Source of the DNA: Methanococcoides sp. AM1
Lineage (GTDB): Archaea; Halobacteriota; Methanosarcinia; Methanosarcinales; Methanosarcinaceae
DNA length: 64,000 bases
Reading direction: 5' to 3'
NCBI RefSeq assembly: GCF_900774055.1
Contig: NZ_CAAGSW010000004.1
Location: forward strand, 248,001-312,000
Positions 1,761 through 43,498 of this stretch are shown here, in pieces (positions within the stretch are counted from its first letter, which is position 1; every line of letters starts with the position of its first letter). The position numbers were made by a program, and so were the translations under genes. Below the pieces are notes generated by a model that was not told where the DNA came from, did not search any database, and saw nothing but the letters and a program-made list of their open reading frames with translations.

Positions 1761-2462
1761 TTATACGTCATTAGCCTCTTTTTCGTTTACTTGCTCATCA
1801 CTAACTAAAATACCATCTTCAAGAGTAATAACCCTGTCAACATACTCAGTATGCCACGGTTCATGTGTTACCATTATAATTGTCTGTCCATAATTGTCAT
1901 TCAATTCTTTGAACACATCCAGAACTTGTTTTGAGTTTCTGGTGTCCAGATTTGCACACGGCTCATCAGCAAACATTATATCAGGCTTTTTGGCTATGGC
2001 CCTTGCAATCGCTACCCTTTGTTTTTCCCCACCGGATAATTCATCAGGAACCCTATCATATTTATCTTTCATACCAACCTTGTCTAATGCTTCAAGAGCA
2101 GTATTATAGGATTCCTTTTTTGATTTCCCTTCCATCATGGAAAGCACATAAACGTTTTCTGCAGACGTCATTTCATTAATGAGCGCATAGTCCTGGAATA
2201 CATAACCGACCTGTGTCAGCCTGTAATAGCTTCTTTCGGCTTCAGGTAAGCTGGAAACCTGCAATCCCCGAATGGTGTATTCTCCGGCGGTCGCATCGTC
2301 CAACAAGGCCAGGATCCTTAACAGGGTCGTCTTTCCGCTACCGGATGCGCCCATAATGGCTACAAATTCCCCTTTATTTATTTCGAACGAAACACCATTG
2401 AGAGCCTTGACAGCAGTTTCTCCTGACCCATAATATCTTTTGAGGTCTTTTACAACGATCAT
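1761..2462 (-). CDS. ABC transporter ATP-binding protein (LolD/MacB type)
   Basis: Cytoplasmic ATPase of an FtsX-type ABC exporter or mechanotransmission complex. It has Walker A GASGSGKTT (residues about 38-46), the Q-loop region GYVFQDYALI, the signature LSGGEKQRVAIARA, Walker B IMFADEP and the H-loop VTHEP. At 233 aa it is the usual length for the LolD/MacB class. The start is the ATG one base after the permease TGA stop, so the two genes are translationally coupled. A longer reading starting inside the permease gene is less likely. Last gene of a four-gene operon: regulator, surface protein, permease, ATPase. Substrate unknown. Confidence 0.93.
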   Translation of the reverse strand: MIVVKDLKRYYGSGETAVKALNGVSFEINKGEFVAIMGASGSGKTTLLRILALLDDATAGEYTIRGLQVSSLPEAERSYYRLTQVGYVFQDYALINEMTSAENVYVLSMMEGKSKKESYNTALEALDKVGMKDKYDRVPDELSGGEKQRVAIARAIAKKPDIMFADEPCANLDTRNSKQVLDVFKELNDNYGQTIIMVTHEPWHTEYVDRVITLEDGILVSDEQVNEKEANDV

Positions 2463-2463
2463 A

Positions 2464-3675
2464 TCATCTTCCCCATATGGCTTTGAGTATGCTCTCTTTT
2501 GATACACTCCATGCAGGAAGTGTGCCGGCTATTACTGATAGTGTAAGCATTGTAATTATGCTCTGGATCAACAGCATAGGATCTATCACGGGCCTTATTT
2601 CCATGGTCTCATAGAATACCACCGGATTTGCCTGGAAATAAAGCATGAGTGAGAAGTATAGGACCAATCCTGCGATTATCCCTAAGGAAACATAGAACAT
2701 GCTAAGGAATGCATAGGATAGTACTATTGATCTTGGGGTAATGCCTACTGCTTTTAAAATGCCGATCTCTTTTTTCCTGTTAAGTATGTTGATATAGATT
2801 ATGATAAGTATCAGTGCTGCACCAACGATCAGGCTCACGAACTTGGACATGACATCTATAGCGCCCATGCTTTGCATTGCCTGCTTTATGAGGGTCTCTG
2901 ATTTATCAGCCCATGTGAAGACCTTCTCATTCACCCCGGCGTCCCTTATCTTGTTCTTCATCTGTTCCTCAGTGCCTTGCTCGTCGATCCTTACAACCAC
3001 AGTAGTAGCTTTACTACCTTCCAGACCATACACATCTTCGATCTCTTTATAGTGAACCAGTGCATTGAGATCAACAAGTTCAAAATTTCCTTCCATGATG
3101 CCTTTGACCTTATAGGTCCTTTTCACACCATTACTGTATGTTACATCAACAAGCGATCCTACTCTGGCTTCACCAAGGTCATCATATATTTCTCCAAAAG
3201 TTGTACTTGTGCCTGATATTATAGAACCAAGGATGATCTCATCCCTGGAAAGCTCACCAAGGAAATCCCCTTCTTTGATAATATATGGGTATTGTGAGAT
3301 CTCATACTCTTCCGCCGGAAGCAAACCGGTCACCGTTGACCCCACCACTTTTTGTTTATGCTCTATCGAGACACCCACATCCAGTCTCTTTGTTGCAGCC
3401 CTTACACCTTCAACTGCCCGGACCTTCTGCAGGACACTATCAGCATCGTTGATGTAGGTATTATCGCCTGAAGGTTCAATGACAACGTCCCCGTAAGGGT
3501 AGTCCTGCATAAATCCAGTAAATAGAACAGTCATTCCCCCTATCATTGATGGAAGGAACACTAAGTTCATAAAAATGAGCGAGAGAACAAAAACTATGAA
3601 CATCAGTGTTTTTTTGTTCCCTCTTTTTATGCTGCTTGCTGCAATGAGAGCCCCCACCCTGATATCGTTGATCAT
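2464..3675 (-). CDS. ABC transporter permease, FtsX/MacB family
   Basis: Integral membrane permease of 403 aa with the classic FtsX layout: one N-terminal transmembrane segment (about residues 24-46), a large extracytoplasmic MacB-PCD-like domain (about 50-265), then three C-terminal segments (about 275-300, 318-345, 370-393). The stretch RKKEIGILKAVGITPRSI between the last segments is the family coupling motif. GAGGT lies 8 nt before the ATG start. It probably works with the ATPase downstream and the anchored CARDB-type protein upstream in lipoprotein, cell-envelope or signalling transport; the direction and cargo cannot be read from sequence. Confidence 0.92.
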   Translation of the reverse strand: MINDIRVGALIAASSIKRGNKKTLMFIVFVLSLIFMNLVFLPSMIGGMTVLFTGFMQDYPYGDVVIEPSGDNTYINDADSVLQKVRAVEGVRAATKRLDVGVSIEHKQKVVGSTVTGLLPAEEYEISQYPYIIKEGDFLGELSRDEIILGSIISGTSTTFGEIYDDLGEARVGSLVDVTYSNGVKRTYKVKGIMEGNFELVDLNALVHYKEIEDVYGLEGSKATTVVVRIDEQGTEEQMKNKIRDAGVNEKVFTWADKSETLIKQAMQSMGAIDVMSKFVSLIVGAALILIIIYINILNRKKEIGILKAVGITPRSIVLSYAFLSMFYVSLGIIAGLVLYFSLMLYFQANPVVFYETMEIRPVIDPMLLIQSIITMLTLSVIAGTLPAWSVSKESILKAIWGR

Positions 3676-3687
3676 ATTGGAGACCTC

Positions 3688-4914
3688 TTATTCTTCTTTG
3701 TCAGCAGAGTTATCATTGCCTTCCATTAACTGTTTGATTATCTCATCCTTTGACTTTTTAGTCCTGTAATTATTGTAGATCAATCCCCCAATAACTGCTA
3801 GGACAAGCAATACGATCGCAGCTGTTCCTACCCCACTGTTACTTTCCAGAACAATGACATTGATCACCGTGTCGACCTGCTCTTCTCCAAAATCATCAAT
3901 ATACGTAATTGTCACAGGGATCTCATATTCCCCTGCTTCATCAGCTATGAAAGTGATAACCGCAGGTCCGTCTTCGTTCGGATCAAGAGTTCCTATAAAG
4001 GATTCTTTTAAGCCCATGAACGGATGGTCAGCATAGACCCTTATTGAATTTATTGTCCTGTCACCGGAGTTTTCGATCCTCATGGTCAATTCCACAGTAT
4101 CATCCACGTAAGGAAGAACAGGATCTACCTTCACAGATGCAAGGTTCAGACTTCCTTTTTTGTCAAGCACGGTTATTTTAATGTCATATTCATCTTTTTG
4201 TTTGCCAAAATCATCTTCATAATAAATAATAACAGGTATCTCAAACTCCCCGGACTTGTCTGCCTTGAATTTGAACAATGCAGTTTGAGTGCCGTTCATG
4301 CCAAGAGTTCCAATTGTAGAATTCTTAATTCCTTCAAACTCATGATCCAGGCTAACTGATACAGATTTTGCAATCGCTTCACCGAAGTTATCTATACCCA
4401 ATTTTAGATCGACCGTATCCCCCTCATAGATGTATTCAGGATTGGTTTCCACAGAAGATATCCTCGGTTCTGCATCTTCACCTGTCACCCTCACCTCAAT
4501 ATCATAATATTTTGTTGTTGTGAGAGCCATATTTGCATGTGTCAATTTCATCTTTATGATATGAGGACCAGGATTAGCATCAGGAGTTGTCCTCATGTGA
4601 TATACAAGATGCCTTTCACTTGTACTATAATGTAATTTCGAAATTGTAGTCACCAGATCTTCCGTAACGATGATATCAGGAGGAATGCTGATTATCTCAA
4701 AGGTAATGTCTTCGGGAGCTTTAGAACCACAACTCTCGAGATCAATAGCCAGGATGAATTCTTCATCGATACCTACCGGATCAGGGCTTATTTCCTATAC
4801 CTGTGCTTCTACGCATATATATCCGGAAGTAGACGATTCAGCAGTAGCGGTTCCAGTCAGGATAACTGCAAAAACTAATAAGAGCAAATATGTTAATTTT
4901 GTATTCTGCTTCAT
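3688..4914 (-). CDS. S-layer/CARDB-type repeat surface protein with in-frame TAG (candidate pyrrolysine at codon 40)
   Basis: Exported, membrane-anchored protein: signal peptide (residues 1-25, ending TGTATA), three tandem immunoglobulin-like CARDB/COG1361 repeats (about 38-150, 155-260, 262-360) and a C-terminal transmembrane segment (about 370-390) with a charged cytoplasmic tail. The frame contains TAG at 4795-4797 (codon 40). Reading continues through it into the first strand of repeat 1 (EISPDPVGID), equivalent to repeat 2 (SSVETNPEYI). The ATG overlaps the regulator's TGA (ATGA), so translation must start upstream of the TAG. A GTG at 4653 would remove the signal peptide and half of repeat 1. 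Best explained by pyrrolysine insertion or lysine replacement (AAG to TAG); a nonsense mutation is the alternative. Confidence 0.78.
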
Positions 4915-5402
4915 GTTCTATTCTCCCCACTTCGAATCTTTTCTGTAAATTCAATAAGATTTTTTAAAATCAGATCTAATGCGATCATTTGATGATGGTA
5001 ATCTTCAATTATTTTGAGTACTTCTTCTGAGCCCTCTGCTTTACTATTCTTACATTTTTCAATTATTGCAGGAAGATCTTTAAGTGCAGGAGCGACCATG
5101 AACTCGCTCTTGGATCTTACTGCATTAATGGTCATTGTCAGCATATCTCTTTGAACTGAGAAGTACAATTTCTTTGAACCGGATCTCTTTGTTTTTTCCA
5201 CTAATTTAATTCCACTAAGCATTTTCATTTCCGCACTAACTGCTGAAAAACTATATCCGGTCATTGCAGAAAGTTCATCCAGGGTTAGCAGATCCGGTGC
5301 AGAATAAAGTATTGCAAGCAATTTCGAGGAAAGTTCATCAAGTCCGTAGGACCTCATCCCCTGATATACAAGATCCTCAAATTCTTTTTTTGCGGTTTTC
5401 AT
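4911..5402 (-). CDS. MarR/GbsR-family winged-helix transcriptional regulator
   Basis: 163-aa DNA-binding protein with a winged helix-turn-helix in residues 18-85 (LTLDELSAMTGYSFSAVSAE as the HTH, then a basic wing KRSGSKKLYF) and a C-terminal helical dimerisation region, the layout of the GbsR/MarR group. First gene of the operon: its TGA overlaps the ATG of the CARDB-type surface gene. It most likely controls its own ABC operon, but no operator was identified. The ligand is unknown. Confidence 0.85.
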   Translation of the reverse strand: MKTAKKEFEDLVYQGMRSYGLDELSSKLLAILYSAPDLLTLDELSAMTGYSFSAVSAEMKMLSGIKLVEKTKRSGSKKLYFSVQRDMLTMTINAVRSKSEFMVAPALKDLPAIIEKCKNSKAEGSEEVLKIIEDYHHQMIALDLILKNLIEFTEKIRSGENRT

Positions 5403-42193: not shown

Positions 42194-43498
42194 TTATATC
42201 TTTCTGTTATCGATAACTTTCTTTGCCTTACCCATTGAGCGTGGCAATGACCCGTGCTCGACGAGCTCTACCTTAACAGCAATGTTCAGCACGCTCTTAA
42301 GGGCTGAAGCCACCTTTTTCTCAAGGTCCATGATGTCAGTGACCTTATCGCTGAAAGCAGCGTCATTCATTTCGATCTGCACTTTCATGATATCCAGTTC
42401 ATTGACCCTGTCAACGATGATCATGAAGTGCTCGCCAACCTCAGGAATATCCATCAGAACGGATTCCACCTGCCCAGGGAAGACATTGATGCCACGAACG
42501 ATAAGCATGTCGTCAGCACGACCCAGTACACGCATGATACGTGGATGTGTACGACCACATTTACATTCATCCCAGTTCAGAACAGTTATATCACCGATCC
42601 GGTACCTGATAAGCGGCAATGCTTCCTTCACAAGTGTTGTGATCACAAGCTCACCGCGTTCGCCATTTGCCACAGGTTCACCGGTATCAGGGTTGATGAC
42701 CTCTACAAGGAACTGGTCTGCCCATATATGGATACCATTTTGAGACTGACATTCAGTGAAGAGAGGACCACTAAGTTCGGATGTTCCGAATATATCATAG
42801 GCCTTGATGCCCGTGGAATCTTCGATCCTCTTACGCATCTCTTCGGACCATGGCTCGGCACCCAGCACGCCTACGCGAAGCTTTGTATCATCCTGGAAAC
42901 TGATGCCTGCATCCCTTGCAGCTTCGATCATGAACAAAAGGTATGAAGGAGTGCATGCAATGACAGTGGACCCAAGGTCCTGCATAAGTTCGATCTGCCT
43001 GTCGGTATTCCCGGAGCTGGTAGGAAGAACGGTACATCCGGCTTCTTCTGAACCGTAGTGCATACCAAGACCACCTGTGAAAAGACCATAGCCATAGCCT
43101 ATCTGCATGATATCGTCCCTTCCTACACCAATGGATGTCAATGCACGTGCAAGGGAAGTTGACCATGTCTGAATATCATTATCAGTGTAACCGACCACAG
43201 TAGGTTTGCCAGTGGTCCCTGATGAAACGTGGAAGCGTACAAGCTTGTTGTTCGGAACACAGAACATACCTGTTGGATAAGTGTCCCTCAGGTCTTTCTT
43301 GAATGTGAATGGTAGCTTTGTAACATCATCCAGTGTCTTGATGTCCTCAGGTTTTACACCCGCATCATCGAATCTCTTTTTGTAAAAAGGAGAATGCTCA
43401 TAAACATATTTTACAAGCTGGCACAACTTTTGTTCCTGTACTTTTTTTAACTCATCGACAGGCATTCTCTCGATCTGTGGATTCCAGTATTCTATCAT
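42194..43498 (-). CDS. paaK: Phenylacetate-CoA ligase
   Basis: 434-aa adenylate-forming enzyme: converts an aryl acetate plus ATP and CoA to the CoA ester. Motifs: HVSSGTTGKPTVVGYTDND, DIFGTSELSGP, ERGELVITTLVKEALPLIRY, RIMRVLGRADDMLIVRGINV, SMGKAKKVIDNR, plus a CKCG zinc-like pair. In methanogens it is linked to aryl-acid use for aromatic amino-acid synthesis through indolepyruvate oxidoreductase (established for related genes). The adjacent ACT protein likely gives feedback. Confidence 0.94.
   Translation of the reverse strand: MIEYWNPQIERMPVDELKKVQEQKLCQLVKYVYEHSPFYKKRFDDAGVKPEDIKTLDDVTKLPFTFKKDLRDTYPTGMFCVPNNKLVRFHVSSGTTGKPTVVGYTDNDIQTWSTSLARALTSIGVGRDDIMQIGYGYGLFTGGLGMHYGSEEAGCTVLPTSSGNTDRQIELMQDLGSTVIACTPSYLLFMIEAARDAGISFQDDTKLRVGVLGAEPWSEEMRKRIEDSTGIKAYDIFGTSELSGPLFTECQSQNGIHIWADQFLVEVINPDTGEPVANGERGELVITTLVKEALPLIRYRIGDITVLNWDECKCGRTHPRIMRVLGRADDMLIVRGINVFPGQVESVLMDIPEVGEHFMIIVDRVNELDIMKVQIEMNDAAFSDKVTDIMDLEKKVASALKSVLNIAVKVELVEHGSLPRSMGKAKKVIDNRKI

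Follow-up and report, generated by a model that had tools for sequence, protein, structure and literature searches.

An in-frame TAG at codon 40 of a Methanococcoides gene for a CARDB-type surface protein is, judging from comparison with related genomes, probably a young sense codon, created when a CAG (Gln) codon became TAG and read by insertion of pyrrolysine (Pyl) in competition with aRF1. The gene lies near one end of the window, that is, the entire 64,000-nucleotide stretch that was analyzed, together with the following features:

1761..2507, minus strand: LolD/MacB-type ABC ATPase, intact, downstream of the CARDB gene
2464..3675, minus strand: FtsX/LolC-type ABC permease, intact, downstream of the CARDB gene
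3688..4914, minus strand: CARDB-type surface protein gene with signal peptide, three Ig-like domains and C-terminal transmembrane segment (CARDB PF07705; AlphaFold)
4795..4797, minus strand: in-frame TAG at codon 40, putative pyrrolysine codon derived from CAG (Gln) (sequence, orthologue comparison)
4911..5402, minus strand: upstream regulator open reading frame (ORF) of 163 aa, with an ATGA overlap with the CARDB gene (NF047500)

With the TAG taken as sense, the CARDB frame comprises 408 codons, starting with ATG at 4914 and ending with TAA at 3688-3690. Re-reading the sequence confirmed what a preceding sequence-only reading had reported: the frame spans 3688-4914 and contains a single TAG at 4795-4797 (CTA on the plus strand), which is codon 40 and the only stop to interrupt it. 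Also present, as that reading had described, were the ATGA shared with the regulator ORF and an N-terminus resembling a signal peptide. The regulator ORF bears a weak likeness to the choline regulator CudC (NF047500, E 3e-9, far under the curated cut-off), while the surface protein matched CARDB PF07705 with E 1.1e-8 and 35.6 bits against a cut-off of 22.7. Its AlphaFold model (mean pLDDT 78.9) showed beta strands in three repeats, so that a CARDB domain and an Ig-like beta fold, the two marks of a CARDB / Ig-like surface protein, were both found. Contrary to the earlier proposal that the first strand directly follows the TAG, the model places codon 40 within strand 35-43, the first strand of the first Ig-like domain.

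All 16 CARDB orthologues, which are 72-92% identical, read through codon 40 without interruption and carry CAG, AAG, CAA, GAG or GAA at this position; TAG is thus not conserved between species at codon 40 and, among the orthologues compared, is private to the source species. Further loci from named genomes showed the same sense codons, except that a single record, titled Candidatus Methanoperedens, has GGA. The site appears to tolerate K, Q or E, varying among long polar residues. The nearest named records belong to Methanococcoides species, the closest relative of the protein being that of M. vulcani SLH 33 (92%). At codon 40, CAG is found in M. vulcani and in most of the species near it, AAG only in another branch of Methanococcoides. 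The ancestral codon was therefore taken to be CAG, and the single change from AAG to TAG that had been suggested from the sequence was rejected. A transition from CAG (Gln) to TAG on the branch of the source species would be the simplest history, and is the likelier one.

A single-base error of assembly or sequencing in an otherwise intact CAG codon could mimic such a change, the TAG having been seen in one assembly only, of 46 contigs. We regard this as very unlikely: the genome is 99.93% complete and 0.11% contaminated, a frameshift signature is absent nearby, and a single-species CAG/TAG difference of the same kind occurs in a second genome. That difference affects a PaaK-like AMP-binding ligase (window 42194-43498, minus strand), which is uninterrupted in the window and in other species, and has CAG in the window where M. 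vulcani, and M. vulcani only, has TAG (codon 202; G004:C10:129036-130340). On this codon comparison, the ligase is the converse of the CARDB case, with the TAG private to M. vulcani.

The 368 codons that follow the TAG are under purifying selection (dN/dS 0.089 versus M. vulcani), and comparison with the sister species revealed no frameshift, indel or second stop among them. Since the 16 orthologues are uninterrupted and these later codons are under purifying selection, the CARDB frame past the TAG is, by this sequence comparison, not a chance one; the gene presents an in-frame TAG within a homologous, otherwise intact frame. The intact downstream codons and low dN/dS also speak against a fresh null mutation, in which CAG became TAG, aRF1 mostly terminates there and the CARDB gene is a new pseudogene. 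This alternative draws on the TAG being private to one species; a comparison with sister species cannot date the change. Substitution counts were 22 nonsynonymous and 43 synonymous on the source branch (ratio 0.14) and 10 and 32 on the sister branch (0.09), a difference that was not significant (Fisher P 0.29). The TAG at codon 40 may have arisen too recently for selection to indicate that the gene remains functional, which counts against the sense-codon reading.

A search for pyl genes in the source genome (G000) had been set beforehand as a check whose failure would tell against pyrrolysine, and it recovered the full complement. A complete pylT-pylS-pylB-pylC-pylD set lies in one cluster at about 250.0-254.4 kb of G000:C2; pylT was recognized by ARAGORN as tRNA-Pyl with a CTA anticodon, and pylS, pylB, pylC and pylD all pass their NCBIfam cut-offs. 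Only one aRF1 passing its cut-off was found in the genome. Two mtmB and two mttB genes are interrupted by one TAG apiece. Two MtmB homologues without TAG (G000:C4:32090-33439 and C4:364686-366047) exist beside the two with TAG. We did not count pylB, which ends in TAG, as an additional Pyl case, as the literature takes that TAG as a stop. The presence of a dedicated amber tRNA makes any other suppressor unneeded, arguing against read-through that does not involve Pyl. Equally, re-start downstream of the TAG at an in-frame GTG (4653), where a 321-aa ORF begins, would lose the signal peptide and most of the first part of domain 1. We consider non-Pyl read-through or re-start extremely improbable.

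TAG is rarely used as a terminator in the source genome. In the 1.35 Mb covered, it terminates 21 of 1016 ORFs of at least 150 codons (2.1%), compared with a background trinucleotide share of 17.9%. A Pyl-less member of the order ends 23 of 137 such ORFs with TAG (16.8%; Fisher P 2e-11), and a Methanolobus-like member of the family 12.5%. Moreover, some of these 21 TAG ends are the interior TAGs of the methyltransferase genes and of two further genes, encoding a lyase and an FrhB-like protein, while in a few ORFs that still end in TAG another stop lies within a few codons. Some archaea reportedly read all TAG codons as Pyl, as laid out in a 2025 'Pyl code' report; we do not claim this for the source genome. 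A screen for interior stops relative to the sister genome left 7 TAG, 2 TGA and 0 TAA after filtering (P between 0.03 and 0.12 according to the ts/tv assumed), but three of the five G000 TAG matches (C2:497456, 311457 and 444774) lie upstream of a likely start or in doubtful frames. The count was judged too noisy and given no weight.

The strongest evidence that Methanococcoides decodes TAG as sense outside methyltransferases comes from the lyase and FrhB-like genes. In the former, a member of the fumarase/aspartase family (G000:C4:338237-339592), codon 210 is TAG in seven Methanococcoides species and CAG and TGG in two others; in the latter, with YHS, ferredoxin and FrhB domains (G000:C2:381945-383117), codon 345 is TAG in six Methanococcoides species and TAT (Tyr) in the remaining genomes examined. 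Between TAG-bearing species, dN/dS past the TAG was 0.05-0.09 for the lyase and 0.03-0.07 for the FrhB-like protein. Because purifying selection past the TAG is strong in both genes, Methanococcoides reads the codon as sense in them. The lyase gene seems to lack ATG, GTG or TTG at the expected start, where a conserved G-run is followed by ATATCCG, and it is reduced to a remnant in the M. burtonii genome. Separately, a 432-aa protein without a Pfam match (G000:C2:365753-367051) has TAG at codon 162 in the source genome only, where M. vulcani has AAG.

A PaaK paralogue of the source genome (G000:C3:359366-360706) contains an in-frame TGA, which is lacking from comparable genes in G001, G006 and G007; interior stops here are therefore not always Pyl codons, and this other interrupted gene adds to the case for a null mutation in the CARDB gene. 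However, TAG seldom serves as a stop in the source genome and is retained as a sense codon by conserved genes, and even partial decoding would yield some full-length protein. We thus hold a null mutation to be unlikely, though less so than a sequence error.

Pyrrolysine is the best explanation for the CARDB TAG because the genus has retained in-frame TAG in no fewer than two other genes that do not encode methyltransferases and that evolve under purifying selection. The earlier suggestion that TAG can be read as Pyl in a surface protein gains support from the pyl cluster, the TAG-bearing mtmB and mttB genes and the TAG-bearing lyase and FrhB-like genes. In the proposed course of events, a CAG (Gln) codon would have mutated to TAG in the source Methanococcoides lineage, and Pyl-tRNA(CUA) would now insert pyrrolysine at codon 40 in competition with the single aRF1. 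A full-length, exported CARDB protein would be made, possibly along with some 39-residue truncated product. We infer the decoding of codon 40 as Pyl, its efficiency and a neutral rather than useful change, the exchange of CAG for TAG being probably neutral. The mRNA after the CARDB TAG showed no unusual structure (z -0.23), a point against Pyl decoding, although Pyl insertion at UAG needs no downstream element (review PMC9499178). It is very doubtful that Pyl supply gates export of the CARDB protein, through a CARDB-ABC transporter operon tied to methylamine metabolism, or that a reactive Pyl side chain is used on the cell surface.

The CARDB TAG is likely a further case of a known phenomenon and involves no new mechanism. 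Its direct precedent is Methanosarcina acetivorans Thg1, a non-methyltransferase protein whose gene likewise gained an in-frame amber codon in a single species and whose activity does not require Pyl (PMC2933860). Pyl was physically observed in Thg1, whereas in the exported surface protein it is deduced from sequence. MtmB, MtbB and MttB share the pyl machinery and the codon with the CARDB gene in the source genome; in contrast to the variable CARDB site with its private TAG, their Pyl is a conserved residue with a presumed role in catalysis. In common with neutral amber drift, proposed for Pyl organisms in PMC3639795, and with the 'Pyl code' report, TAG here emerges as an ordinary codon where TAG termination is rare. 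The sequence-only reading of the gene as a non-methyltransferase example of Pyl thus holds, but the novelty it implied does not, Thg1 and PMC3639795 having come first.

Standard annotation would shorten the CARDB gene to 39 codons or label it a pseudogene. The gene offers a tangible example of an exported protein in which one species has exchanged a sense codon for TAG, and the sister species show that Methanococcoides keeps TAG under selection in ordinary genes.
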